Shown piece by piece: positions 11,889 to 62,980 of a stretch of DNA of 64,000 bases; the stretch's first letter is position 1; each line of letters begins with the position of its first letter. This stretch comes from Jaapia argillacea MUCL 33604 (Eukaryota > Basidiomycota > Agaricomycetes > Jaapiales > Jaapiaceae). Both the position numbers and the translations under genes were made by a program. The stretch is from contig KL197783.1 of assembly GCA_000697665.1 (NCBI GenBank), positions 20,776 through 84,775 of the forward strand. The letters are read 5' to 3'. The notes beneath the pieces are model-generated. The model had not been told where the DNA came from and searched no databases. It worked only from the letters and a program-made list of their open reading frames with translations.

Positions 11889-14293
11889 TTACATAGAGAA
11901 AACCTCCGTCTGCAACCCAACGTACACCCCGCTCATTCCTAACCTCGCAACAGCATTCCTAGCCTCCCTCACCAAAGTAGTCGGCCCACTCGCACAAACC
12001 GCCACTCTTCCCACCTCCTCCCCATCCGGTTCTCGGGGAGCATCAGCCGATCTCACCTCCACTTTCATACCCTTCTCGACCTCAGCCTCCACTCCTCCAA
12101 TTTCTACCACGTCGACAGAAGGAGACGGAGCCGAATGCACTAGCCCTTTGACGAGCTGTCTCACGCTCGGTCTCTCGTCCAACAAGACCTTCGAGTTCGG
12201 GATATCGGGCACGGCATCGGGGTTGCATAGACACGTCACGTAGATTGATATCCTCAATTCGAAGGAGGAGGCGGGGACAGTACAAGCCCGTCGAGATATC
12301 GTTTGCAAGATGGGCGCGAACCATTCGATATTCGCTACAGTCGAGAATCAACGAGAAGAAAAAATAAGTGAATGAAGTTCACGATCAGACGTGGACGTAC
12401 CGAAGCTTCGAATACACCAAACAAACTCAACCAGCCTAGTCCTCTCCCCTCCTCTCCTACCCAACCTAACAACCCTCCCAACCAAATCATCCAACAACCC
12501 AATAGTATACGTAGCCCCACTCCCTCCCGCAACCAACAAGACATTCTCGTACTCTCCTAAATCAATCGACGAACCACCATATGGACCATCGATCATAACC
12601 TGAATAGGTACACCGTCCAACGTCTGCATCGGCGTAGAATCACTATCCTTCTCATCAACAAAGCCACCATTGCCCAACTCGGATCGCATGTGTGACTCAA
12701 CGGCTTCCGTCCAGTCTCCCAACGCTCTCGCGCCCAATAACATACCCTTCCCGATCTCCAGCCCCGCATATCCAATATCTACGGTTGGATGGCAGGAATT
12801 CGGCGGAGGGGTAAGACAAGAAGTCGAAGGAGGTGCGTTCATGACCGTCAGCGGATGCGATTCGATGAAGTGTTGGTTTGGGAGGAAGATTCGGAGACGG
12901 AGGTGTTGACCTGCTGACCAGCCGGAGGTACAGTCGGGTATATCGATCTAGGGTAAATTATTAGCAATTGAAAAGAATTCACGGAGCAGTGGGGGTACGG
13001 AAGTGATGAGGAGAGACAGGGGAGTAGCAGGACGAGTAACGAAAGTGATAGACGTATGAAGGGTCGAGTGAACGACATACCAAGGTCATACCGCTCCCCA
13101 CGTGTATCAACAAGGCGTCCTTCACCCGATACCTCCCCATCCTCAACACGAGATCTAACCCATAAAACGCCAGCGGTGGGAATATCCAAGGCGACGCAAA
13201 TGGCGTATGATAGCAAATCGTAATGAAAAATGCGACAAACCCAGCGACGCTACATTCCAAAAAAAAGCCCCGTCAATACCGATCCAATTACCCCAGAGAG
13301 CGAACACGAAACTTACTGCAAATAAAAGAACCCTTGATACGCCCATCTCCGAACCACCCTCATGCTACTCAACACAATCAAACATAGAACCGAAAAAGCA
13401 GCGACACCCGAACCCTCCTTCTGTTGTCCCAGAATCGGTAATCCGAATGTCAAATGGTTGTTGATCCATAGACTACCGTGGATCGCAGCTGAAAGGAAGA
13501 GTATACGTCCGGCCCAACGATGTAGGAAGTTGATTTTCTCGTAAGAGAGGGACGGGAGTGAGGAGAATAACGGGAGGGTGTGGAGAGATTTCGTTGAGAG
13601 GAGGAAGACTGGGGAGAGTTGTGCTAGGGCCATGAAACCTACGGAACAAGGAAACGAGGACCATGAGTGGGAAGAGGAAACGGAGCTGCGAGAGACATAC
13701 CGGCGCGGTTAGGGTTAGACATCAACGGCGCGTTTCTGATGATGCACACCAGCACGGTGGTGAGGTACCCGACCACTATCAAAACTGTTTCAAACGGAGA
13801 GGTCAGAACCAGAAAGGTGAGAGAGCCGACGATGCTTACTCTGTCCAACGTCTAGCTCGAGGTAGGGAATGGTCCATAACATCGCACCCCTGATCCTAAC
13901 GAACAGACTGGAGGCTAGCTGTCTGCCCCGCGTCCTCTTCATCGTCTCCGGCCTCCCAATATCCACTACATCCAGACCCTCATCCTTTTCAGGCGTGCCA
14001 ACACTCAGATATATCCCCTTCCAATCCTCCCTCACCCCCAAGAGGGCTTCAAACGTCTTTCCCCGTTTGATCGCGCGATAGAATGCAGGGAGGGAGAGGA
14101 GGAGTACGAGACCGGCAAGCGAGGCCCATACAATAGTGAACTTGCGCTGGTATTTTGGATCTTCGACATAAGAACTGTAGAGGATGCGTTAGGACTCAAC
14201 GAAAGGTGAGATAAGCGAGATGATAAAACGTAAGACTCACTTGTAGATCTGGAAACTGGACGGAATCTGAGGAGCGTCACCGAAACCAGACAT
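11889..14293 (-). CDS. Ferric/cupric reductase (FRE family, NOX-like)
   Basis: ATG at 14293 (MSGFGDAPQIPSSFQIY), with several exons to a stop at 11889. An N-terminal helix (FTIVWASLAGLVLLLSLPAF) precedes the ferric reductase membrane domain. The two haem-ligating His pairs are both spaced H-X13-H: HRWAGRILFLSAAIH, and a second pair whose first His is formed across an exon junction (CA|C) and whose second is in ICYHTPF. The FAD motif HPLTV and the NADPH motif GGSGATYTIG follow, with a C-terminal CASGP. It passes electrons from cytosolic NADPH across the membrane to Fe(III) or Cu(II), giving the ions used by uptake systems. The Ctr copper transporter lies 3.3 kb away in divergent orientation, which favours a copper/iron uptake role over a NADPH oxidase one. 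Confidence 0.85.
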
Positions 14294-18390: not shown

Positions 18391-18699
18391 GGTTTGGCGG
18401 TTTAGGATGTGGGCATGTTGAGAGGGGATGTTGAGAGGAGGAAGGGGTTGTAGCCATACTGGATCATTATCTTCGACTTTCCCTTCCCCTCGACAAGGTT
18501 GGATGATTCTATTTATCCTTAGTTTTTCACCTTTCGTTATGCATGAATGGATGTTGTCTCCGTGCCACGTCAATGAGTCATGTTGATATTCGGTTCCGCC
18601 AAGTACGTGACTCGGTCGCAACTTACTTGCATGCAACAACCTCACCACCTCCTTACTCTCCTACTTCTACGTCAACCTCGATATCCCAGTTTACACATC
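18391..18699. other. Intergenic, Ctr to NADAR
   Basis: A short gap with 3' sequence of Ctr and the promoter of the NADAR gene. An in-frame ATG at 18580 could extend NADAR by 40 codons, but the added residues show no conservation signal. Confidence 0.35.
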
Positions 18700-19422
18700 A
18701 TGCCTAAAGTCCGAACGAAATCCACATCGGCTTCCTCGGCTACCAAAGGTGTCGGTAAAAGCAAAGGGAAGGGGAAAGCCAAAGCCAAAGTACCGAGCAC
18801 GCTTCCACCCGCAGACACATCAGACTCTCGAGACAACTACGTCTTCTTCTGGAAGCCAAACGAAGTTCACGGATGGGCCTCTCAATGGTACCGCTCCCCT
18901 TTCACCGTCGCAATCCCTTGTGGACCACCCGACGATTCCGGTAACCGTACCAACGAAGAACACACTTTCCAAACAGCCGAACATTGGATGATGGCACAAA
19001 AAGCCCTCCTCTTCTCAGATTATGACACACTCCATACCATCCTCTCCATAACATCCACCGACCACTCCTCCCTCGCCCGCGTCAAATCTCTCGGTCGCCA
19101 AGTTACACCGTTCGACGACAAGGTGTGGAACGAGAAGCGTTTGGGGATAGTGATAGAAGGGAATTTATGGAAGTTTAGGGGGGATGGGGAGTTGAGGGGG
19201 AAGTTGGAGGGGACGGGGGAGAGGGAGTTGGTTGAGGCTAGTCCTAGGGATAGGATTTGGGGGATTGGGTTTGGGGAGAAGAATGCTATTGGGAGGGGGA
19301 GGGCGGCTTGGGGGTTGAATTTGTTGGGTAAGGCTTTGATGGAGGTTAGGAGGACGTTGAGGGAGGAGGAGGGGAAGGAGGGGGTGAGGAGTGGTGTGGA
19401 TGAGGGGACGGTTGACAGTTAG
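18700..19422 (+). CDS. NADAR-domain protein (YbiA/RibX-like N-glycosidase)
   Basis: Single exon, 240 codons, ATG at 18700 (MPKVRTKST), Lys/Ser-rich for 45 residues, then the NADAR fold: FFWKPNEVHGWASQWYRSPF, TAEHWMMAQKALLF, the KSLGRQVTPFDDKVWNEKR segment, and SPRDRIWGIG near the end. Family members hydrolyse N-glycosidic bonds, either of damaged riboflavin-pathway intermediates or of ADP-ribosylated guanine. The conserved Glu-His and Trp-Gly-Ile-Gly segments are present, so it should be active. I cannot tell which substrate applies. The 3' third switches to a strongly G-rich coding strand. A truncated copy lies at 26905. Confidence 0.85.
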   Translation: MPKVRTKSTSASSATKGVGKSKGKGKAKAKVPSTLPPADTSDSRDNYVFFWKPNEVHGWASQWYRSPFTVAIPCGPPDDSGNRTNEEHTFQTAEHWMMAQKALLFSDYDTLHTILSITSTDHSSLARVKSLGRQVTPFDDKVWNEKRLGIVIEGNLWKFRGDGELRGKLEGTGERELVEASPRDRIWGIGFGEKNAIGRGRAAWGLNLLGKALMEVRRTLREEEGKEGVRSGVDEGTVDS

Positions 19423-20800: not shown

Positions 20801-23634
20801 ATGGTACAGACACGTCGACAATCTGGTAAGCTCCCGCCTCCGAGGTATCCTGCAGCCGCTGCTACGTCTGAGTCGGGTGAAGAAGATGGCGACGACGAAG
20901 ATGGTGTCAGTTCCGAGTTGACTGAGTTGGAAAATAATGTGGAAGCCAAAGGTGCATGCATCGTGGTTTAATCGACGGCGGCGGCGATTTGTACTCATGA
21001 TTTCAATTTCCAGATGTCCTTCCAGCCAGGAAACGTGCCAAAACTAATGGCACACCAACCAGTACCAGCACCTCCGTGACTACAGCAGCCACAGCTGTTC
21101 GGAAGAAGCGAGTCGGTGGGCTCAGCATGTTACCCCATGCGCCACTCGACATCCTCTTTGAGGTTTGCCTCTCCCTCCTCCCAACCCCTTCTTCTAAGTT
21201 TCACCTTTCCATCTCCACTAGATATTTGGGCACCTAACTCTCAAAGACCTCCTTAGCCTCTCACGCACCAATAAACTCCTCCGCAAAACTCTCTTGTCTC
21301 GTAGTTCTCTCGGTGTCTGGAAGAATACTCGTTTGGTTGCAGAAGTACCAGATGGGCCCGAGGAGATGTCAGAGCCTGCTTGGGCCGAATTGCTTTTTGG
21401 TACGACTTGTCAGGTATGTCCTTCATTCCTTTTCTTTCCTTGTTAGCATCTTTCCTGATGTGGTGAATAGAACTGTGGAGAGAAATGTGTGACCACCGTC
21501 GATTTTGCAATTCGGAGGAGATGTTGTTCTGATTGTCGAAAGGAACAGTACGTCCTCCTTGCTCTCTTATCATGTCTAATTTAGTACCAACCCTACAACT
21601 TTTTGAATCTAGCATTGTATGTGCTGGTCTGTTCGAAAGGAAGTTTCCGAATCTCAACCCAGTGATTATGAAGCTCATCCCTTTCGCATCGAGTATGTCC
21701 TCTCCCCCATTTTTATCAGTCCCTCTTCCCCCTTCTCTGCCCCCCTCCCCTTTCTCCACTCCTGTTCCCTTCCCCACCTGTTGTCCCTTTCTCCATCCTC
21801 TTCACCCTTCTTCACCCGTTCATATCCTAATTTATTCGCCGACCTTAGTTGGTGGCTGGGCCCAGGGTTACTCTCCTTCCTCCAGATTCTTCTGGGATGC
21901 CGATGTCTATACAATGAGTAGACAACTCATCCCTTACCGGAACACTGTACATATGATTACACCTGGTGCGGAAGCTCCTCTCGATACCTTTAAGGAGGAC
22001 AGGAAGGCAGAGGTCATTCGAGTCATTGAGGTGTGTTGCGTTCAATCTGATGGGACTTTTTGTGTGGTTTGACTCATTTATGTGTGTGAGTAGCAAGCTG
22101 GGAAGTATGAGGTATGGGCAGAGGCATGGGCTAGTGAGGCTGGCAAGAAGAGGATTTCCGAGTGAGTCCCTACCTCCCCCCCTCTCTCCGTATTTTTTTA
22201 CTGATGTTTTGTCACTTTGGCTTGGTGGTTGATGTGTATGAAGTATTGTAGCTCGGTTATTAGCACTTGGTTGGCATCAACGAGATGTTGACCGTATTCA
22301 GTTTGACCTCCAACGAGAGCCAAATAATAACAAGGAGCTCACAGATCGTGGTATGTCTTCTCTCTCCTATGTCTACATCTCAGTTAAGCGATGGCTCCGG
22401 CTTATTTATTTCTCAACATCTAGGTTTCGCAATGATGAAATCTCGCCTAGAAACTACCCTCGCAACCTACAAATCCAAGCGTATTGAACGAGAAACTATA
22501 GCTCTTCGTGGAGCACGTACCACCATGGTCCCCTCAACGTACTACGATTTCAAGGGATCCCTACCACCAAAATCATGGGCACTCCTCCCTCGGCTGTTAG
22601 ACTTTCAGAGTGTGGAAGCAGTGAGGGTGTGGTTGGAAGTTGAGGATGGCGTGGAGGATGGGAAGGATGTGTTGGAGAGGGAAGAGGTTGAGAGGTTGTG
22701 TGGTGGATGGAAGGAGGAGAGGCGAGCAGGGATCGAAGCACTCATTCAGGAGGACTGTGAATCACTCCGAACTGCCTCGACGGACTCTGAACCCAGCCAA
22801 ATCATCACCGATCGGGTGATTCCCGTGTTCGTCTGTTCAAGTAGAGGTTGCACGAATGATTCCGAGTCACCAAACCCTCCATCTGAAACCCGGTCTTCGA
22901 CGCTAGTGGGTATTGAATCTGCCGTGGTACACAGCTGTCGTGGAAGGGTCGACGATCGAGATGTCGAGCCAGGAGAATTAAAGTTTTGTAGGAGGGGAGG
23001 GGAGGGTTTTGCGTCGGTTTTGAAGGTGGTGGGGTTGGATATCAAGGCTGGGGAGCATGTGGTCGAGGAAATGGATAGGGTTGATGCGAGGTTTGTGTGT
23101 GAACGTTGTGCACCGGTTGAGCAGTATGGGGTGTTGGGAAAGTTCATCATGACTTGGAGACAATGTGTGCGTGTTATTATTCGTTCATCTTATCCCAATT
23201 GATCTCGACTAAATATTCTCTGATTTTTTTGGATGAAGGTTGATCATTATATCGAGTACGACGATGTTTGCCATGGAACGCCGAGTTGGCAATTGCTCGA
23301 CATGAAGCAGAGAACGAGGGTAGTGGATCAACAGCGTGATCCGGCGAGAAAAGCTCATCGGTGGTTATGTGGGCTTTGTCAGTTCAGTCTCAAGCAGGAC
23401 ACGACACACAGGGCAATTCGGAGGCATTATCGACAACTGTGAGTGCTTTCCGTTTTCTCCGCGCGCCTTCGCTGTGGATTGTGGGGTTTCGTTCGTTCTC
23501 TAGTTGATATCATTGCTACGCCCCCCAGACATGCGCTCGAGAACGTCCCGGGGCCTATCAAAGGAAAAGATATATTTTACAACCCAAGCTTATTCCGTTT
23601 ACAACCCAAGCAGTTACACACTGGCGCCATTTAG
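20801..23634 (+). CDS. F-box/Cys-rich protein A (C-terminally truncated)
   Basis: ATG at 20801 (MVQTRRQSGKLPPPRYP), an acidic exon, a basic linker, then the F-box (MLPHAPLDILFEIFGHLTLK). After SEPAWAELLFGTTCQ a CxxC-type exon follows (NCGEK...RRRCCSDCRKE), then helices, a long exon (22426-23166) with FVCSSRGC, FCRRGG and FVCERC, and an exon ending WLCGLC. The F-box should bind Skp1; the Cys/His pairs suggest zinc-supported substrate binding. Compared with copies B and C the last Cys pair (CKRCDG) is missing: the frame ends at TAG 23632-23634 after YNPSLFRLQPKQL. A shadow of the lost tail (ELDIDFEKL) remains out of reach to 23831. The rest of the exon chain is consistent. Confidence 0.75.
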
Positions 23635-27804: not shown

Positions 27805-27888
27805 ATGGTACAAACTCGTCGTCAATCGGGTAAGCTCCCGCCTCCCAGGTATGCTCCAGCCACATCCGAGTGCTCGTTGGTGAAATGA
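27805..27888 (+). pseudogene. 5' stub of an F-box/Cys-rich gene
   Basis: ATG at 27805 followed by MVQTRRQSGKLPPPRYAPA, identical to the start of the F-box genes. It then runs into DUF6533 3' flank and stops at TGA 27886-27888 after 27 codons. The F-box and everything after it are deleted. The promoter segment is retained, so a short transcript is possible. Confidence 0.8.
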
Positions 27889-37937: not shown

Positions 37938-38373
37938 GGGACGTGAGGGGTTTTTGGTATGTGTGCGTTGGATTTTGAATTTACGGAGTGGACAGATCGG
38001 ATCTGTGGTGCTCGTCTTATTTAATTCCTTCCTCGATCGATGTTTTTTTTGGTTGTGTGTACCTTGATTGACTGTTCGGTTCTTGGGGGACAGAGGTTGC
38101 AACTGCGGTTTTTGGTTCGGTGGTCAGAGAGAGCATGGTGACGTTGTCAAGTCATCGCATTCCTCGTCCAGGAAGCAGCCTTCGGGCTTTCCATTCAACA
38201 GCGGCCTCGTGGCCTTGGTATTACAAGGGGTTTAATCCTCAGTACCCATACAAATGGAGGTATGGACTTTGATACACCGTTCCCCCGGCGTTTCAGAGAG
38301 GGCTCACGCAGTCGTATAAGGATGTTGTGCCAGTGTGGGTTCGTCACTCCAGCAGTCTCTCATTCGAACTAAC
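37938..38373. repeat. F-box 3' flank / Dabb promoter
   Basis: The left half matches the 3' flank of F-box C up to about 44180 (TTGGTTCGGTGGT). The right half matches the Dabb 2 promoter from about 48887 (GATGACGTTGTC, CCATACAAATGGAGGTATG). In this copy the two halves are contiguous. Confidence 0.5.
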
Positions 38374-38917
38374 CATGTACCCCATAACCCGTTTCGCTGC
38401 CTTCAAGTACAAGTCCACAGTCACGGAAGAAGAGAAGAAAGCTGCGATACAGGGCTTGCTCGACTTGTACGCATTAAAGTCCGAGTACGTGTCGGATGTG
38501 CAAGGTGAAGACCGTCGGGTTTGGTTGAGACTCTTGATCACTGAACGGCATGTCGGAAGTTGGGAAGAATAATAACGAGGAGGGATATAGCAAGGGTTTT
38601 GATGTGAGTATGAGTGAATACCCTACCGTTGTCGAGCTCATCATGGGTGCCGGAACAGATCGTGTTCTCGGTCAAGTTCAGGGTACGTAGCGTTTGGTTG
38701 ACAAGATGCGCAGGAGATGTTGAAGTCATTCCTTGTCAGTCGGTAGAGGATCGAGACAAATTCATCCCTGACGCAGACCATATTGCTTACAAGGTGAGGC
38801 GGATGCGCTTGAGCAAACCCCATTCGTTATCAGCTTGTTCCTAACGAGTGGTAGATGTCGGTGATACCCATCGTCGAGGATGTCATGGTGTATGACTTTG
38901 TCAACGGAGAGTATTGA
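38374..38917 (+). CDS. Stress-responsive Dabb (A/B barrel) protein 1
   Basis: Five exons in frame: 38374-38504, 38560-38603, 38659-38682, 38741-38794 and about 38856-38917, stop TGA. Translation gives 104 residues, the usual size of a dimeric alpha/beta-barrel Dabb protein: PITRFAAFKYKSTVTEEEKK, LYALKSEYVSDVQ, GKNNNEEGYSKGFD, IVFSVKFR, SVEDRDKFIPDADHIAYK and a last strand IVEDVMVYDFVNGEY. The family forms small dimers and is induced by stress in plants and fungi, sometimes with enzymatic roles in polyketide cyclisation. The substrate here is unknown. The Dabb 2 gene at 49203 has the same structure. Confidence 0.8.
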
Positions 38918-39230
38918 GGCTGGTGCAGAGCACCGGACGTGGAGTTGGTCTTGTATTTGAAGATGGCTTGCGAGGGAATCGTGGTTTGGTGGGACTGTAG
39001 TGGAAGATGAAGCCGGGGTAGAAAGGAGTGTATTGATTTGTGCGTCTTAGATAATAATAAAGATACTTTGAAATCGTGTGAAGGGGTGTAGACGCTCGTA
39101 TGCCTTGCAAGAAGCAATAATGAAGCCTAGAAGACGCGGTTGTCGGTTTTCACTACGAGTCGCGATGGTATGAACAACGAACGGGGGAGTCCAGAAAGAA
39201 AATATGGGACGCACTTCAGGGTTCAGTCGT
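38918..39230. other. Intergenic, Dabb 1 to downstream pseudogene
   Basis: Matches 49756-50040 downstream of Dabb 2 (for example ATAGATAATAATAAAGATA). No gene seen. Confidence 0.4.
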
Positions 39231-39930
39231 TCAGAGGTAAGCCTCGACGCAGCTACAAGTATAACAGCATTGGGCCAGGTAGAATATCTCTACATTGAAG
39301 TCCTCGTCATCTAGAACGAGATACTCGTCGGGTGCAGCTTTCGGGGAGGTCCTCGGAGCAATTGGAAGTGGAGTACTCTGAATATTCAACAGAGGGAGAG
39401 GGGCTGGGTTCGCGATCGTAGTAAATGTACCCAGGGCATCCGATGTCGAGGATATCATAGGTCTATCCATGGATTATCAGAGTCACTGTAGACCAGGGAT
39501 AGAGGCGAACGTGCCGTATTAAACCCAAATTGGGACTTGACATTCACGATGATATCGTGGAGAGTTTTCCTCCACTCCTCTTTCTGATTTGCTTCTCCTG
39601 CTTCCGGTTTTTGATAAGGAATGCTTCGACGAGGTCTTCTTCCAGCTGCGAAGCCTAACTGACACGATGAATCTTCGCAGAACGCGACGGCGAAGGTGAA
39701 CGAGAAGGCTGTTTGGGGATCGATTTTGGAAGCGTAGATGATGAATAGGATGAAGAACAAGGGGAGTGAGAATAGGTGGATGTCGTGGACAGTGTGCTGC
39801 CCTTTCGACTGTGGGTACGACTGACATCTACCCGGTAAGATGTAGGGCATGAAGGGCTGTGTCTTTTAAACATATCCGGGAATTTCATGGTCCGGACAGG
39901 GTTGTGGCCAGCCCGAGGCTCAGACATAGA
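39231..39930 (-). pseudogene. Broken, 5'-truncated copy of the SILK/RVSW protein gene
   Basis: Parallels 50052-50690. The Ser-rich part and LPKSIPKQPSRSPSPSR are present (SILK changed to SIPK). The HRVSW site reads HRVS then stop, because TGG became TAG (near 39655). Further on, at least one indel shifts the frame before KTLHDIIVNVKS, and the acidic tail exon (starting TYDILDIGCPGYIYYD) has a 2-base deletion that ends it early, before the Cys-rich end. The first exons (the counterpart of 50700-51379) are not found. Three independent lesions make this a pseudogene. Confidence 0.8.
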
Positions 39931-40471
39931 TAGTTAAGGATTGAACACCTCGGGAAGGTTTGGTGACGGAATCCATCATCTGAGGAACAGAATCCAAGAA
40001 TAAGTGCCGTTCGTAGAGTCGTTGCAAGACGGGCAGAGAAACGTATGGTGGATAACACGCCATAAGTATCATTTCAACACTTGAAGTCCAACACTCACTG
40101 GATCGATTATTACTGATAGGCCAGTACGATACTTGGAGTCTCCGGCATCACGAACTCTCGATCTGCTCAGGCTTGCTATCTTTCGTGGTGGTTCGTGATA
40201 ATTTCGTTCCTTGAGTTCGAATCACCTCCGAATCAACTCTGAGAGACCTGGGATAAATATGATGAACGATTCTCCAGATTCCAGAAACCTGTATCTGCCG
40301 TAATGGGAGAGGATGGAGACCATCATAGGTGGGAGAACTTGTACATACAAGTAATTATTCTCCCCGGCTTCCCAGAAATCGTTCAGCGCTATACTGAGCC
40401 CCAACCACGCTGGAGACGCGTTCACCTTGTACATCCGTAACATACTCCGACTTCCAACGACTGCATGAATC

Positions 40472-40620
40472 CGGTAGAGGGTGGAGACGAGTTCATCCTG
40501 ACCGTATGGCCTACAAGGCGAATCGGATGTGTTAGAGCAGATGGTGGCTATCCATGTCGTTTCTAACGATTCGTAGACGTCGGTCGTACCCATCGTCGAG
40601 GACATTATGGTTTACAATTC
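40472..40620 (+). pseudogene. 3' fragment of a Dabb gene
   Basis: Matches the last two exons of Dabb 1 (38741-38890): GGTAGAGGGTGGAGACGAGT resembles the VEDRDKF exon start, and GTCGTACCCATCGTCGAGG encodes the VPIVEDIMVY strand. The 5' exons are absent and the last codons are lost. It lies just upstream of the F-box C promoter and marks a duplication breakpoint. The 540 bases to its left (39931-40471) contain no recognisable gene. Confidence 0.65.
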
Positions 40621-40926: not shown

Positions 40927-43900
40927 ATGGTTCAAACTCGTCGACAATCTGGCAAGCTCCCGCCTCCAAGGTACGCTCCAGTAGTCGTGGAATCAGCCGC
41001 GACCCAGTCGGACGACGAAGATGGCGATGAGCACGATGGGTTCAGTTCCGACTTGACTGAATTCGAGAGCGATGAGGAAGACAAAGGTGCGTCCATCGTG
41101 CTTGAATCGGAGGCGGTAGCGATTGGCTCATCACCGGAACTTTCAGACGTTTACAATGGTCCTCCCGCGAGAAAGCGTGCCAAAACCTCTGCCCTGCCAA
41201 GTACCGGTACCACTCCAACAGCTAAAGCTGCCCCACTAGGAGCAAAAGTTGTTGGGAAGAAGCGAGTCGGAAAGCTGAGCATGTTACCGCAAATACCACT
41301 TGACATCCTCTTCGAGGTCTGTCGCTCGCTTACTCGATCACTCCCTCTTCCTGACTTTGCTCCTGTGTTTCTCTAGATATTCGGCCACCTAACTCCGAAA
41401 GATCTCCTCAACCTATCCTGCACTGACAAACTCCTGCGAAAAACCCTCATGTCTCGTAAATCTCTCAGTATCTGGAAGAATGTTCGTTTGGCTGCAGAAG
41501 TGCCAGATGGACCTGATGGCATGTCAGAACCCGCTTGGGCGGAATTGATTTTCGGCACGACTTGTCAGGTCTGTTTCGTCTCTCCCGTCTTTCGTACATA
41601 CTTTTCGTTGACTGGATAATAGAATTGTGGGGCGAAGGGTGTCACAAATATCGATTTCGCGATTCAAAAGAGATGTTGCGTAAGTTGTCGAAAAAAACAG
41701 TGCGTCCCCCTCTCTAGTTTCCAAGTCCACCCGGTACTCACCTTTCGCGTTTGGTATTAAACGTGCGACCTTTGATCTAGCCTTGTTTACGCAGGTCGCT
41801 TCGAGAAGAAATTCCCTGATTTCAACCCGGAGATCATGGAGCTTATTCCTTACACATCTAGTGCGTGCTCCGCCCTCCTTCCGTCTGTTGCTTCATCTCT
41901 TATTCACCTATCCTAGACGGCGGCTGGGCTCACGGCCACTCCTCTTCCTCTAAGTTCTTCTGGGAAGAGGACGTTCATGCAGCCTGCAAAGCCCTCGCCA
42001 CGTACCAGAAAGCGGTACATATGCGAACTCCGGGTGCGAAAGCCGCTCTGGACGAGTGGAAAGAGTCGAAGATGGAGGAAGTTACTCGGATAGTTGAGGC
42101 AAGTCTTTGTCATCGCTATGTTCTTGTGTTTTTGAATCATGGATCGGTTCTTGGCGTAGGCGGCAGAGAATTTTGATATGTGGGTGAAGCATCGAACCAT
42201 GTCGAAGCATATACAGGGGGCTGAAATTGCAAAGAAGAGGGTTGCTGAGTGAGTTTGTTTCCCCCCTCTCGTTCCGTCTCGACCCATCCTTGATCCTCAT
42301 TCAACCGTTTTAACGCCTTTATCGCGTCGATTTCTGATCCTTACTTCTAGTATCATTTCTCGGCCTGTGGCACTTGGTTGGGATGAACGGGATGTCGAAC
42401 GACTTCGATATCGCCTTGACCGCGACTCGAGTAACAAAAAGGAATTGACTGATCGTGGTTCGTTTCCCTCCCTTCCTTCCTTCTTTCCTTCTGCTCTGAC
42501 ACTTCCTTTCTTCGATGTAGGTTTCAGGATGATAAAACCAGGCCTCGAAGCATCCCTCGCACAATACAAAGCCCAGCGCATTGCGCAAGAAACCAGAGCA
42601 CGTCGCGAAGCCCGTGCAAAACTCTTATCATCGACCTATTTCGATTACAAGAAAACCTTACCGATCAAAGAATGGGCTTTCATACCTCGGTTGGTCGATT
42701 TTATGGAGATGAGAGAGATGAAGGAGTGGGTGGAGTGTGATGCAGAGATGGGGGAGAATGGTTTGGGAAGAGAGGTGTTGGAGAGGCTGTTTGGGGAGTG
42801 GAGTGAGGGGAGGAAGGTGATGGTTGAGGGACTTGTTCGGGAGGGCCTTGGGTCGGGCTTGATGGATGTTGAATCTGGTCAAATCGCCGTTGGCCAAGCC
42901 TTCCCCGTGTTTTTATGCACGAGCAAAGGCTGCGCAGGCGATACGCGAACATCATCTTTCTCATCAAGATTACGTTCTCCAGCCATCATAGGCATTGAAT
43001 CCGCCTTGGCTCATAGCTGTCGCGTTATAGTTGCCGATCCATTCCGGACTATTTATTATGCACGCTATCCAGATGGGGAGCTTGAGCTGGCAGAACTGAA
43101 GTTTTGTAAGAGGGGAGGGGAAGCCGTGGATTCGATTTTGAAGTTGTTGGGGTTGGATGGTGAAGGTGGGGATGATGTGGTTGGGGAGATGGATAGAGTC
43201 GATGCGAGGTTCGTTTGTGAGGGTTGTGAACCGGTTGCGCACAAAAAGGTGTCGAGGAAGTTGGTCAAGACTTGGAGGCAATGTGTGCGTTTCTTTCTTC
43301 TTTTGTGCTTATTCACCCCTGTGGTCTCGACCTAACTCTCTTTCTGGCGTTTTTTTGGACGAAGGTCGATCACTATATCGAATGCGATAATGATTGGCAT
43401 ACAACACCAAGTTGGAAATTGCTTGACGAGAAGAAGAGAAAGGCGGTGGTTCAGCAACAGCGTGATGATGCAGCGCAAGCCCATCACTGGATATGCGGGC
43501 ATTGTACGTATAATGCTGTGAAGGAGGGGGATAAGAGGACTGTTGTGACGCATTGTAAGGCAACGTGAGTGCATGTCATATTGCATTGATTCTCTTCCGT
43601 GGGTTATGAATTCTCCGGCTGATGTCTTTGTCCTCAACCCCTATCAGACATACGAACAACTCCAAGCCTGTAGAAGGGAAAGACATATTCTACAACCCAA
43701 GATTAATCCGTCTACAACCCAAGGAAATTTACATGCCTTACGGTTCTCAAGCACCAGTCCCCGTTCGAAAAGCGGTTGCCGTCGGTGGAGACGGGGTGTT
43801 TTTGTGCAAACGTTGTGATGGGAAAGGTCGTCAACGGCATTTCCAACTTCAGGGGGTGCAACAACATCTTCGGGACAAGTAAGTGGTCTTTTTATGTGGG

Positions 43901-48886: not shown

Positions 48887-49202
48887 CAGAGAGAGATTTC
48901 TGCTACATCATGGCATGATGACGTTGTCAGATCATTGTATCGATATGAAACACCCCCCCCCCCCTTCCAGCGCTCAGGAAGCCGCCTTCGGGCCTTCCAT
49001 CCACTCGACAACAGCCTTGAAACCTTGCTATTTTGGAGGGTTGCTGATTCTCCGTGGCCATACAAATGGAGGTATGAATTTTGATACACCGTTTCTCCGA
49101 GTCGGGTCCGGCGTTTCAGAGGGGGCTTGAGTCACGCAGTGGTATAAGGATGTTGGGTCCGTGTGGGTTTGTCGCGATAGACATCCCTCATTCGAACCAA
49201 TC
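48887..49202 (+). promoter_or_regulatory. Dabb 2 upstream region
   Basis: Matches 38130-38373 upstream of Dabb 1, with CCATACAAATGGAGGTATG strictly kept. A run of 13 C residues (about 48951-48963) is added in this copy. Confidence 0.45.
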
Positions 49203-49755
49203 ATGTCCCCCATAACCCGTTTCGTTGCCTTCAAGTACAAGCCCACAGTCACGGAAGAAGAGAAGAAAGCTGCGATACAGGGCTTGCTCGATCTGTACGC
49301 ATTAAAGTCCGAATATGTTTCGGATGTGCAAGGTGAAGACTACTCGGGTTGTGTTGGAATTCTTGATCGCTGAAAGATGTGTTGGAAGTTGGGAAGAATA
49401 ATAACGGGGAGGGATATAGCAAGGGGTTTGATGTGAGTATCAACGGATGATCTCCCAATTTCGAGTTCATCGTGCTCACGGTCAACGGAACAGGTTGCAT
49501 TCTCGGTCAAGTTCAGAGTGCGTACGGATCGGTCGAAGAGATCATGATGTGCAGGAGATGCTCAAATCAAGTCCCCTTTCAGTCCGTGGAAGATCGAGAT
49601 AAATTCAACCCTGATGCAGACCATATTACCTACGGGGTGAGCCTTATAGAGCAGATCGCAGTCGTTCCCCAGGTTGTTTCTAACGAGTGTAGATGTCGGT
49701 GATACCTATCGTCGAGGACCTCATGGTGTACGACTTTGTCAACGGAGAGTATTGA
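49203..49755 (+). CDS. Stress-responsive Dabb (A/B barrel) protein 2
   Basis: ATG at 49203 (MSPITRFVAFKYKPTVTEEE). The exon structure is the same as Dabb 1, with matching splice phases: SDVQ|VGKNNNGEGYSKGFD, VAFSVKFR, SVEDRDKFNPDADHITYG, and a last exon to TGA 49753-49755 (IVEDLMVYDFVNGEY). About 104 residues. Differences from Dabb 1 are mostly conservative, so both copies look functional. Role as for Dabb 1. Confidence 0.8.
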
Positions 49756-50051
49756 GGCCGGTGCAGAGCAGCCGTACGTGGAGATGGGTCTTGTTCTGAA
49801 GTCGGCTTGCTAAGAATTTGCTGGTTTGGTTGGATTGTGGTGGAAGATGAAGCGGTGGTAGAAAGGAGTGCATTGACTTGTGGGTTATAGATAATAATAA
49901 AGATAGTTGAAAATAGTTCGAAAGAGTGTGGATGCTCGCATGCATTGCGCGGTCATCGATGGTCACTACGCATCGCGATGGTGTGAACATGAGAATGACG
50001 AACAGGGGAAACAAAAAAGAAAAGATGGGACGTACTTCGGGGTTCAGGCGC

Positions 50052-51379
50052 TTAGAGGTAAGCCTCGACGCAGCGACAAGCATAACAGCATTGGGCCGGG
50101 TAGAATATCTCTAAATCGAGATCCTCGTCATCTGAAGGGAGATATTCGTCGGAGGAGCTGGTTTCGGAGAGACCGTCGGAACAGTCGGAAGTGGAATACT
50201 CTGAATATTCATGAGAGGGAGAGGGGCTGGGTTCGCGATCGTAATAGATGTACCCAGGGCATCCGATGTCGAGGATATCATAGGTCTATCCATGGATTAT
50301 CAAGACCACTAGTAGACCAGGGATAGAGGCGAACGCACCGTATCAAAACCAAATCGAGATTTGACGTTCACGATGATATCGTGGAGAGTTTTCCTCCGCT
50401 CCTCTTTTCTGCGTTGCTTCTCCTCGGCCTTCCGTTGTTTGATAAGAAATCCTTCGACGAGGTCTTCTTCAAGTTGCAAAGCCCAACTGACACGATGACC
50501 CTTCACAGAACGTGACGGCGAAGGTGAACGAGAAGGCTGTTTGAGGATCGATTTCGGAAGCGTGGAGGATGAATAGGATGAAGAAGGAGAGGAGTGAGAA
50601 GAGGTGGAGGTCGTGGAGAGCGTGCTGCCCTTTCGACAGCGGGTACGGAAGGGGATGAGGGTTGTGATGTTGGGAATTTTCATGCGGAGAGGGGGGGGCA
50701 AAGGCAAGATGCGCCTTACGGAGACCGTTTGGATGGGTTCAGGGGTGAGTTTCGGCTCCGGCTAAACATAACGGACGAGTCAGTTATGGTTTGGTGTACT
50801 GGAGAATGTCGAGATTTACCTCGGGTTCCGGCTCGGGAGCTGGGCGCGGTGCTACGAGTTTGTATTTTATGAGGGCAGTCTCGACCACCTGAGAAAGGAA
50901 TCAAGGGAGAAGCGTAAGGGTCAGAAACCGTCGATATCATTTCCAGAGAATAAAGTCACCATTTGCGTGTAGGTTTGGGCGTGCTAAGGCAAGATGAAAG
51001 GTAAATCACAAAGATATCACGAAGGAGTCCTTGCGAGTCTCACTTTTGTTTGATTGGGATGGATCTCCCAATACTCTCTCGCATCGACGTAAGCTTGAGC
51101 GAGCACTTCGAAGCTGTCGGGCCCTGCCTCCGGTTCGGGTTCTTCGACAGGCATGCTCTTCAGCGGAAAACTTGTTTTCTCAAAGAGTACCTCGTCGGGA
51201 TGTTTGGGCTCGAAATGTCGAGCGTATTGGAGAGGCTGGGGCGGATACTTTCTGCGGTTCCAGCGGACATAGATGCTTGTGGTGTCGATCCCGGGAGATT
51301 TGTCCATGGTGGATCGCCAGGCGTCGTCAGCTGGAACACCGGATGAACCACTGCGAGTAGTGGACTTGGTGCTTGACAT
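50052..51379 (-). CDS. Unknown 361-residue protein with SILK and RVSW (PP1-docking) motifs
   Basis: ATG at 51379 (MSSTKSTTRSGSSG). Five or six exons all join in phase 0: the first to ...HPNQTK (about 51044), then HAQTYTQM, VVETALIKYKL...PEPEPE, a long exon (about 50780-50345) and a tail exon from TYDILDIGCPG to the TAA at 50052-50054. Residues 186-210 are Ser-rich, SILK is at 214-217 and RVSW at 233-236, followed by a Lys/Glu/Arg-rich helix (about 250-270, RKAEEKQRRKEERRK) and an acidic Ser-rich tail ending in a Cys cluster (CCYACRC). SILK followed by an RVxF/W site is how several PP1 regulators, including inhibitor-2 and KNL1/Spc105 types, hold the phosphatase. No known domain is visible otherwise. 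Confidence 0.7.
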
Positions 51380-52302: not shown

Positions 52303-55203
52303 ATGGTGAAAACTCGTCGACAATCGGGAAAAGTTTCCGTACCAAATCTTGCGACAAGTAGTAAGCAAGGCCAAAAATCTGAAGATGAGGGGGACGAGGC
52401 ATGGGCTTCAAACTTGAGCGAACCGGAAGGCGAGGAGGATGAAGGTACTCCTATCCAAATCAGTTTTGACATTGACAATCGGTATTCAGATTGACTTCAC
52501 TTCTAGCTGGAAGTAACGGTAGACCAGCCAAGAAACGTCGCAAAATTGCTGCCTCTTCTACACCCGCTCCTCTCGTCAAGAAGGCACTGCGCAAGAAAGG
52601 CAAACTGAGCAATCTCCCTCAAATGCCTCTAGACATCCTTTTCGAGGTTCATTTCTGCCACATCGTATCTCCTCTTGACCTCATTCTATACAACCCATCG
52701 TCTCAGATCTTTGGCCATCTAGGACCGAAAGACCTGCTAAACCTGTCCCGCACTTCCGTTGACCTCTCCCAAACTCTCCTATCCAGAGGGTCCGTAGGCC
52801 TGTGGAAATCAGCTCGCATCCTCCTGGATGCACCTGAATGCCCCGCAGGAATGTCAGAGCCGGCTTGGACCGATCTACTTTTCGGATCTGGTTGTCAGGT
52901 CAGTACTACATCTCATCAGATCTAGACTCAATCATCTAATGTTAAACTTAGGAATGTGGAACAAAAGGCGTAACACAAGCCGACTTCTCAATCCGGCGTC
53001 GAGCGTGTAACAAGTGTAGACGAGATTGGTGCGTTCCATCCCTCTTGCATCGATTCTCTTCACCTACTCTTTGAGTCCTTGTGTTTTGTGATTTCTCGGT
53101 ATCCAATTACTCACAATCCGCTCTCAGCTTGGTTTCCATCCTTCGCTTCAAAAGTGGATATCTTGAATTCGATCGAGATATCCCCAAACTACTTCCCCAC
53201 ACATCAACCATCACCTGTGCGTTGTTCCCTTACTCTAATTTATCTTCCAGCTACTATTTCTCATCTGAGCTTTGCCCCCTTGTCATCCAACATAGCCGGT
53301 CAGAAGGGCAGTCGCTCCGACTACTACTGGGAGGAGGATATATTTTCTATGAACCAAAAACTGCAGGATTTGGCGAAAGGCATCAACGCAGAGGAGACGA
53401 TTAAAGCATTTAAGGCGGAAAGGGTTGCGGAAGCAAGCGCCATTATGGAGGTGCTTTTTCTTCCTCCCATCTCCGTCCCTAACCCGTGAACTGACTATCG
53501 AGTGCTGGGTCTCAAACAGAACGCCCATCAACTACGCCGTTGGGTTGAGCGTAAAGCCGAGAAACTCAAAGTCGAGCTGAAAAACATCGGTAGGAATCGG
53601 AACGCAGAGTGAGTTTGGATCTCTTCCACATTTTTCATTCATTGCATGTCTGTCCGTTTTCTGATGCTCGCAAAATAGTATCGTAGCTCGCTTCGTGGCC
53701 CTTGGGTGGGAACAACCTGAGGTAGCCCGTCTCCAGCAACAGTTACAACATGAACCCCGCAACAACACCGAACTGACTGATCGAGGTCAGCTCCTCCTCT
53801 TGTTCCTCGCCCTGCGGTTCCTCTCATCACTTACACTGACCTTCGGTTTGGACTTGATCATCATTTTTCTAGGGTTTGCATCAATCAAAAAACGACTAGA
53901 GGGACTCCTCCAAGGTTGGAAGGAAGAGCGACTCGCCCTGGAAGCCAGGCGCCGTTTCGGAAACCGCAAAGCCCTTCTTCGTTCCCTCTACGACAAATAT
54001 CTCACCACTTCTGTCTTGAAGCCTCTGGAATGGGCAAGATCGCCACAGTATTTTGATATCCTCTTGGTGGAGCCGTTCAAGAACCTCCTCCATACAGATC
54101 CAGGTGTCGAGCTTACCGAACCCGATTGTGCTGATGCTATTGCGATGCTTCCAGCGTTGCTTGATGAATGGAGGAAGAGGAAGAGAGCCGATGTGGAAGC
54201 TTTAATGGATGTCAAGGTCGACCTTTCCAGTCATGGTGCTCCAGAGTCGAACGCACCTCAGACGATTCGGCCAGAGTTGGCAGTTTTCGAATGTGGAAAC
54301 CGCCGCTGCCGACGATCCTCCGACAAGGGTAACGCCATCGTCAGTTTTAATAGTGCAGTCTCGCATGATTGTCATCTACGTGACGACGTTGATCTCGAAA
54401 CGCACCTCGAGTTCAGTGTACGGGGCTCTGCCGCTGCTGCTTCCTTCTTGCCATTACTTGGCCTCGCTCCCGAGACGACCCCCGAAGAACTGGATGACCT
54501 CGACCTGCGTCTTCTCTGCGATCATTGTCCGACAATCGCGGAGGGAAGAACGTGGGGGAAGAATGCATACAAATGGAGACAATGTGTTCGTGCATGTTTT
54601 CTTGTCTCTACAATGCTACTTTTAACGTTGTGTGGATATAACCAAAGGTTGTCCACTACATGGAATCTGACTCTGACTCCCACCCGACCCCAAGTTGGCA
54701 GCCACTTACTCCTAGCCAAGTACAGTCTGTAAGGAATCAACAAACTGATCCTGGGAAGGGGTACAACATCGAGTGGGTATGTGGACATTGTCCTGGGGAT
54801 CATCAGTTTTGGGGATGGGATTCAATCGTCTTGCACTGTAAGGAGAAGTGAGTGGGCCCTCTTTGTTTTACTATTCGCTCCATTTTGACTTCATGTATCT
54901 TACCAGACACAAGCTTGAGACCCCCAAGGAGCGCGTCGACTGTTTCTACAACCCTCGTTTACTGCGTCCGCAACCAAATCTTGTCTTGGTCCCTGTGGGG
55001 GATCAACGTCAAGGGAATGGGTACTTTTATTGTTTGCATTGCGCTGGGAACGAAATCAGACGCAAACTTGAAACCGTGCAAGAACATCTTCGCGAGAAGT
55101 AAGCCACAATCATCATGTTGTCGCTTTGACTCGAAACTAACCGTACTCTGGCAGGCATTGTGTTGAAGAGCCAGCTCGAGATTTTGATTTCGTTTCAGCT
55201 TGA
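52303..55203 (+). CDS. F-box/Cys-rich protein D (diverged family member)
   Basis: ATG at 52303 (MVKTRRQSGKVSVPNLA), TGA at 55201-55203. The same architecture as A-C at clearly lower identity: acidic segment, basic linker, F-box (LPQMPLDILFEIFGHLGPK), SEPAWTDLLFGSGCQ, ECGTK...RRACNKC, YYWEEDIFSMNQK, IVARFVALGWEQPE, a long exon (53877-54583) with FECGNRRC and LLCDHC, EWVCGHC...LHC, and YFYCLHCAGNEIR, with a last exon HCVEEPARDF. All exons are open with consistent splice sites. It is likely the family's older member in this locus, A-C being later duplicates. Confidence 0.8.
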
Positions 55204-61761: not shown

Positions 61762-62980
61762 CTAATGGCCAACTAGCACCCTATCAACCCACCTCCCAAC
61801 ATCAACCCATACCTGACTCCTCTTCCTCTCACAATACGTCTCATTCATGATAAAATCATGCATACCATCCTGCCCAACCCTCACTTCCGCTTCTACTCCG
61901 TCCCTCTCCATATACTCGACCAACCGCTGAATCTCCGGCGCGAACGCCTCCGAGTCCCCATACGTGATAAAGGTGGGAGCCAAGTTTGAGAAAGATCCTC
62001 GGGGTCCATTCGAGCGTCCTGGTGAGAGATAGGGAGAGGTGAAGGATAAGAGCGGTTTAACCGAGGACGAACTCGCCGAGTGTTCGATGAGTCCGTTGCT
62101 TGCCAAGTGTGAACGAACGATGGGTCCTCCGATCTCCATCACCAACAAATTCGATTCCAGAGTCGGAGCGTCGACGCTCATGTCACACCACGGAGAATTA
62201 ATAAACAAACATCTCGGGGATCCAACCACACCCTCATCCCTAACGTACCTAGCGAGTGCCAAAGCGAGATGAGCACCGGCACTATCACCACCGATCATGA
62301 TAATTTTGAGGTTGGTATCCGCAATGGTCAACGAGGTATGTGTAAGCTGAGATGGCGTCGATGAGTTGGGCCGGCCAGGGAGCTTGAGGAGCGAGACGAT
62401 ATTCGTGGGTGAAGATTTTGGTTATGGTGGAGTATTTGAGGAGCTCGTAAGCCTGGGTCGTTGTCCAGCTGTGTTCACGGGCGGAGGAGTTGAGGTAGGC
62501 ACCTGAGTGTAGGGTTGGGATGTCGTAAATCGAGGAGAGGGGAGAGAACTTACCTCCATGACTCAACAATCAATCCGTCTCTCCAGGCTCAGCCTTCGTC
62601 CTCTCCCTATCATTCCCATAAAAATATCCCGTGGTAACCACAGGTCCGGCACCCGGATCCAAAAGCGCCATTCCCTTCAAGTATTTCTCATTCGCAGGAG
62701 GTATGACCACCACTGTCGACTTTTTCAACGTCTTTTGATCTAGAACTTGGTCAACGGCAAAGCCATCCGCTTGGTATCCGTGCGCGATCATTCGACGGGA
62801 GTACATGCGTTTGGTTTGTGCTGTTGTGAGACATGCTGCAAGACTCCAGGTAGGGCGAGGACGGTTGGATGGGAAGATGTATATGAGGGTCCAGTAGGGG
62901 ATGCGAGAGAGTACATCGAGGGTGAGGAAAACGATGTAGATGGTCTCGAAGGGCTGTTTCCTGTTGATTGGCATCATCAT
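61762..62980 (-). pseudogene. Alpha/beta hydrolase (HSL/steryl-acetylhydrolase-like) with two lesions
   Basis: Start ATG near 62980 with a membrane-anchor-like N-terminus (FETIYIVFLTLDVLSRIPYW). The family motifs are present: oxyanion HGG (HGGAYLNSS, joined across an intron 62504-62553), EYRLAPQAPWPAQL, nucleophile GDSAG, and the acid and His regions (YGDSEAFAPE; GMHDFIMNE). Two breaks are seen. An in-frame TGA (62570-62572) stands three codons before HGG, and one extra A in a run of four (about 62312) shifts the frame just before GGDSAG; without it the strand reads PQIIMIGGDSAG. Neither is explained by a GT-AG intron. The rest is well kept, so the loss is recent or these are sequence errors. 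The substrate would be a lipophilic ester. Confidence 0.75.

Follow-up and report, generated by a model that had tools for sequence, protein, structure and literature searches.

Regulators of PP1 dock onto its catalytic subunit (PP1c) through short motifs, among them SILK, with the consensus [GS]IL[KR], and RVxF. The minimal form of the latter, [RK]x(0-1)[VI]{P}[FW], is said to arise randomly in about 25% of proteins, and 16 of the 17 Plasmodium proteins picked by an extended form, [KR][KR][ACHKMNQRSTV]V[CHKNQRST][FW], bound PP1 in vitro (PMC4794898). Human inhibitor-3 (I3) is reported to bind via a non-canonical SILK, the sequence KVEW (residues 40-43), basic patches, and CCC (60-62), and the removal of the non-canonical SILK reportedly hardly alters the affinity (PMC10066265). 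In its homolog Ypi1, which has a Trp-type motif, the W53A substitution is described as abolishing the binding to both Glc7 and Ppz1 (PMC6506691). The order of the motifs varies: in the Rif1 of unicellular organisms SILK is reported to precede RVxF at a variable spacing, whereas animals have the reverse order (PMC3410773). Since both orders occur in Rif1, motif order alone is not diagnostic.

We analyzed a stretch of 64,000 nucleotides of the basidiomycete Jaapia argillacea MUCL 33604 (hereafter the window), located on contig C75 of an assembly of 43.7 Mb in 95 contigs. An earlier note had proposed that one of its genes encodes a new PP1 regulator. The genome encodes PP1c (contig C9; a hand-joined fragment matches solved PP1 chains, best E 5.1e-95) and a PPZ-like phosphatase, named from its long N-terminal extension. 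A Spc7 match (PF08317) on contig C19 adjoins an ORF with KSILK and RRVTF, an inhibitor-2 match (PF04979) is on contig C1, and an inhibitor-3 match (PF07491) on contig C30 carries HVAW, which puts a Trp-type site in one of the organism's known PP1 inhibitors. The open frame of the inhibitor-3 match also has a SILK further upstream, which was set aside since it precedes the probable initiator Met and might not be translated. The search of the genome for Rif1 (PF12231) gave no match, and as the controls were equally silent, this does not show its absence.

The candidate resembles the KNL1/Spc7-like ORF of this genome (contig C19) in having a SILK followed by a basic RV[ST][FW] and, 7 residues further on, by a hydrophobic pair (VF in the KNL1/Spc7-like ORF, LV in the candidate). 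It differs in the distance between the motifs, which is of 71 residues in the KNL1/Spc7-like ORF and 15 in the candidate. With the inhibitor-3 match (contig C30) it shares in kind a Trp-type site followed by basic residues and, more distantly, by a Cys pair, but its Cys cluster lies 113 residues past the Trp, compared with KVEW at 40-43 and CCC at 60-62 in human I3. With the inhibitor-2 match (contig C1) it shares a SILK-type motif (GILK in the inhibitor-2 match) and a Trp-containing site, and the long helix reported for known inhibitor-2 (PMC10066265) has a predicted counterpart in the candidate. Unlike these three systems, the candidate carries none of their domains: PF08317, PF07491, and PF04979 were all missing among its Pfam matches up to E 10 (353-aa model, see below). 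One could imagine a fungal PP1 inhibitor that converged on the logic of inhibitor-3. PP1c would be held by SILK together with a Trp-type RVxF, with the basic helix placed along the acidic substrate groove and CCYACRC extending to the active-site metals; we consider this very improbable.

The gene is best described by a five-exon model on the minus strand (51379-50052) that encodes a protein of 361 aa (Table 1). Its four introns are 53-71 bp long and all GT/AG, and all exon lengths are multiples of three. The very short exon 2 sits in a gap of 155 bp, where it leaves an intron of 60 bp on one side and of 71 bp on the other. Its inclusion gives exactly the residue positions that the earlier note had claimed for SILK and RVSW. 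The alternative model without this exon has 353 aa, with SILK at 206 and RVSW at 225.

Table 1. Features of the candidate gene and of its duplicate (positions in the window)
Feature	Coordinates	Strand	Residues	Remarks
Exon 1	51044..51379	-	1-112	Without known domain
Exon 2	50960..50983	-	8 aa	24 nt; splice signals only
Exon 3	50820..50888	-	23 aa	
Exon 4	50339..50761	-	144-284	Ser-rich stretch, SILK, RVSW, charged helix
Exon 5	50052..50285	-		Acidic Ser/Asp/Glu stretch, C-terminal CCYACRC (350-356), stop TAA
SILK	50540..50551	-	214-217	Exon 4
RVSW	50483..50494	-	233-236	Exon 4; 15 residues past SILK; coordinates computed from SILK position
Predicted single helix	50351..50497	-	232-280	K/R/E-rich; single-sequence model, exon residues 89-137
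Decayed duplicate	39231..39819	-		Truncated; part of exon 4 and exon 5; in-frame TAG at Trp codon

The protein was said to lack any known domain, and our searches agree. The Pfam search with the 353-aa model, for which matches were taken up to E 10 and in which the filters of HMMER discard most weak matches, returned a single family, with an E of 0.32 that is under its cut-off. The same model gave four matches in the PDB, with E from 0.36 to 8.3, none of them meaningful. Again with the 353-aa model, no relatives were confirmed among the 33 pattern stretches found in viral contigs and the 124 found in contigs of prokaryotic genomes, and a plasmid search with exon 1 only revealed no relative. 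The viral, prokaryotic, and plasmid collections are not fungal, and the absence of matches there does not make the gene an orphan. Within its own genome, searches at E 0.001, 1 (with the 353-aa model or parts of it), and 10, where only the best candidates were scored, identified no second full-length copy; the sole relative found is the duplicate inside the window. In the literature, no paper on such a basidiomycete or fungal protein was among the titles listed, which is faint evidence that the protein is undescribed so far, as a nameless protein is hard to search. The only listed match of a search on RVxF and SILK in lineage-specific fungal PP1 partners was a paper on a ciliary PP1 subunit.

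The duplicated block spans 48975-50647 and 38169-39819, with 80.5% identity over 1,707 columns, and includes part of exon 4, exon 5, and the downstream DNA up to 38169. The DNA similarity ends inside exon 4 (at 50647 in the gene and 39819 in the copy). Hence, the copy is a truncated duplicate lacking exons 1-3. At the motif sites it reads SIPK and RVS-stop, as had been reported, and two more frame-changing gaps are found elsewhere. At the C-terminus, all four Cys of QCCYACRCVEAYL (50052-50093, minus strand) are retained in the decayed copy as QCCYTCSCVEAYL (39231-39272, minus strand). This Cys cluster is possibly a lipid or metal site.

The comparison of the two copies bears on whether the gene model is that of a functional protein at all. 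It could instead be a decaying gene, like its neighboring copy, or a wrong chain of exons. The divergence between gene and copy is 0.115 and 0.121 in the exons, the same as in the intervening intron (0.115, 6 of 52 bases), and higher downstream of the exons (0.193, 0.193, and 0.152). Changes are nearly even across the three codon positions (21, 18, and 24, in about 179 sites each), a pattern to be expected where one of the copies has drifted freely for a long time. The lack of relatives in Pfam, PDB, viral, prokaryotic, and plasmid searches, and a 24-nt exon whose evidence is confined to its splice signals, point in the same direction. Against this, the five exons form one open frame with introns of fungal size, and the amino acid changes are fewer than expected in the frame of the gene only. 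When the observed substitutions were re-placed at random on like bases and the changed codons counted, we found 32 changed codons out of 177 in exons 4-5, relative to 40.8 expected (P = 0.0046 for the two exons together, 0.017 for exon 4, and 0.19 for exon 5), while the five control frames gave P of 0.92, 0.53, 0.40, 0.99, and 0.09. The dN is 0.10 and the dS 0.21. This result covers exons 4-5, exons 1-3 being missing from the copy. Selection has thus probably acted on the frame during some of the period after the duplication. Because the reading frame is constrained relative to its local duplicate, the gene is probably real, and we regard a non-functional model as unlikely.

The earlier note had also pointed to the absence of both sites from the copy, described as no longer under selection. 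As evidence for the motifs this argument does not hold, since the copy is truncated at its 5' end and evenly decayed. The two proteins differ at 32 of the 176 aligned residues, and among 154 pairs of four-residue windows placed at the spacing of SILK and RVSW, 47 (31%) changed in both windows. With so many double changes and such an even decay, the loss of both motifs is uninformative: in a truncated, decaying duplicate it tells nothing on whether a motif works.

The genes of the window are intron-rich. The starts MVQTR(R/W)QSGK or MVKTRRQSGK recur at 27805, 34895, 40927, and 52303 (plus strand). Two ORFs of the window are weakly of the F-box type, under the Pfam cut-offs, one of them at 52491-52925 (E 0.0011). 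The ORFs at 22264, 36469, 42253, and 53665 resemble the F-box-like ORF by eye; Pfam gave no match for those at 42253 and 53665. The repeated starts and similar ORFs may represent a local family of F-box-like genes, judging by eye and from a weak match. A frame starting MSSTMGTTDVY (40225-40611, minus strand) lies upstream of the decayed copy; this ORF of 129 aa has no Pfam match. Frames starting MTSSTMGITDIY (near 38886, minus strand) and MRSSTIGITDIY (near 49724, minus strand) are found downstream of the decayed copy and of the candidate gene, respectively, and positions 40533-40615 and 49647-49731 match at 77.9%. The window also encodes a NADAR-domain ORF (18577-19422, plus strand; PF08719, E 8.3e-50), an alpha/beta hydrolase ORF (61762-62421, minus strand; PF07859), and a ferric-reductase-type FAD/NAD-binding ORF (12348-12947, minus strand; PF08022 and PF08030).

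We now turn to the motifs of the candidate. SILK fits its consensus, and RVSW fits the minimal RVxF pattern. The stricter forms of RVxF fail because a His stands before the Arg in GHRVSW: it lacks the K/R at -3 and -2 of the extended pattern, which is a screening pattern that is not demanded of every member (PMC4794898), and by eye it does not match the form with two K/R ahead of the V (PMC10454571) either. RVSW is preceded by K-G-H and followed by E-E-D, with the hydrophobic LV after 7 residues, and the linker of 15 residues between the motifs is rich in Ser, Arg, and Lys. Another PP1 motif, Fxx[RK]x[RK] (PMC4794898), occurs twice in the candidate, at 181 and 248, and was given no weight. The disordered, Ser-rich setting described previously is apparent in the Ser+Pro fraction, which is 0.45 in residues 181-220 and 0.47 in residues 201-240, flanking the motifs, and in the low model confidence of this flank. 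The single-sequence model of exon 4 (mean pLDDT 70.1, pTM 0.34) places SILK in a low-confidence coil. Exon 1 modelled alone has a mean pLDDT of 55.9, one short helix, and no confident fold.

The helix said to follow the motifs is indeed predicted, as the only one in exon 4, but its 49 residues begin at H232 and cover both RVSW and LV. Docked RVxF peptides are extended, and the RVSW segment would need to unwind from the predicted helix. This is mild counter-evidence only, because single-sequence models place helix ends poorly. Together with the unmatched extended pattern, it nevertheless favors an explanation in which the gene is real and the motif pair coincidental, SILK arising from Ser/Lys-rich disorder and RVSW starting a charged helix with a structural role. 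A difficulty for this explanation is that the segment from residue 233 is not notably amphipathic (P of 0.59 and 0.40) and that W236 sits off the hydrophobic face of the predicted helix. An amphipathic helix as the reason for the V and the W is thus unsupported, and the helix alone fails to explain these residues.

The coincidence can be assessed from the rarity of the pair. Among 300,000 shuffles of the whole protein, an ordered SILK+RVxF pair occurred in 282 with a loose pattern, 52 with [RK]V[^P][FW], and 12 with the tightest pattern, [HKR][ACHKMNQRSTV]V[CHKNQRST][FW]; when residues 181-280 were shuffled, the corresponding counts were 313, 76, and 31. The permitted range of spacings, about 5-45 residues, was set once the candidate had been seen. 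The counts agree with those of 200,000 shuffles of the 353-aa model (whole protein, 232 loose and 33 strict; residues 151-275, 512 and 66). At the level of a proteome, assumed to have 15,000 proteins of 450 aa, the chance pairs expected for the three patterns are 37, 5.8, and 2.0. These figures derive from shuffling 145 ORFs (minimum length 150 aa, 41,463 aa in total) taken from 17 sampled stretches; the real ORFs contain no SILK+RVxF pair. Six-frame ORFs from the window and from 17 arbitrarily chosen 10-kb stretches (261,971 aa) contain 16 SILK-type sites, and an RVxF-like site lies no more than 50 residues away from just one of them, that of the candidate. Hence, the motif pair is unusual for one protein, yet expected a few times per proteome.

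The scarcity of the tighter patterns among the shuffles (12 to 76 per 300,000) argues against coincidence, whereas the 2 to 37 chance pairs per assumed proteome argue for it, as does the fact that the motifs were singled out after reading the sequence, which makes the test post hoc. We give the coincidence close to an even chance. The other reading, a real fungal gene whose largely disordered product docks PP1c via a bipartite SILK and RVxW, has in our view a chance that falls somewhat short of even, and the two are about equally likely. The earlier proposal of a candidate PP1 regulator therefore stands in part: the motif order, their flanks, the disordered setting, the rarity among shuffles, and the presence of PP1c in the genome speak for it, and the evidence from the paralogue has to be dropped. 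The observations are the motif sequences, their rarity among shuffles, the frame constraint on exons 4-5, and the PP1c that the genome encodes.

If the product docks PP1c, its plausible role would be that of a subunit for targeting or substrate selection, with SILK and RVSW filling their two separate grooves on PP1c, bridged by the 15-residue linker, and the remainder of the protein carrying PP1c to a partner. Phosphorylation of a Ser or Thr at the x position of RVxF blocks docking, and phosphorylation of the Ser in RVSW might provide a natural off-switch. A Ser or Thr is reported at this position in more than half of the RVxF regulators (PMC10066265). Binding, targeting, and switching are all inferred from the sequence, and PPZ is possibly a docking partner besides PP1c. 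At present, this is a motif prediction, cheap and testable. If PP1 is bound, a gene without known relatives would have entered an ancient phosphatase network by acquiring two short motifs, and PP1 might then have more partners in fungi than have been counted.
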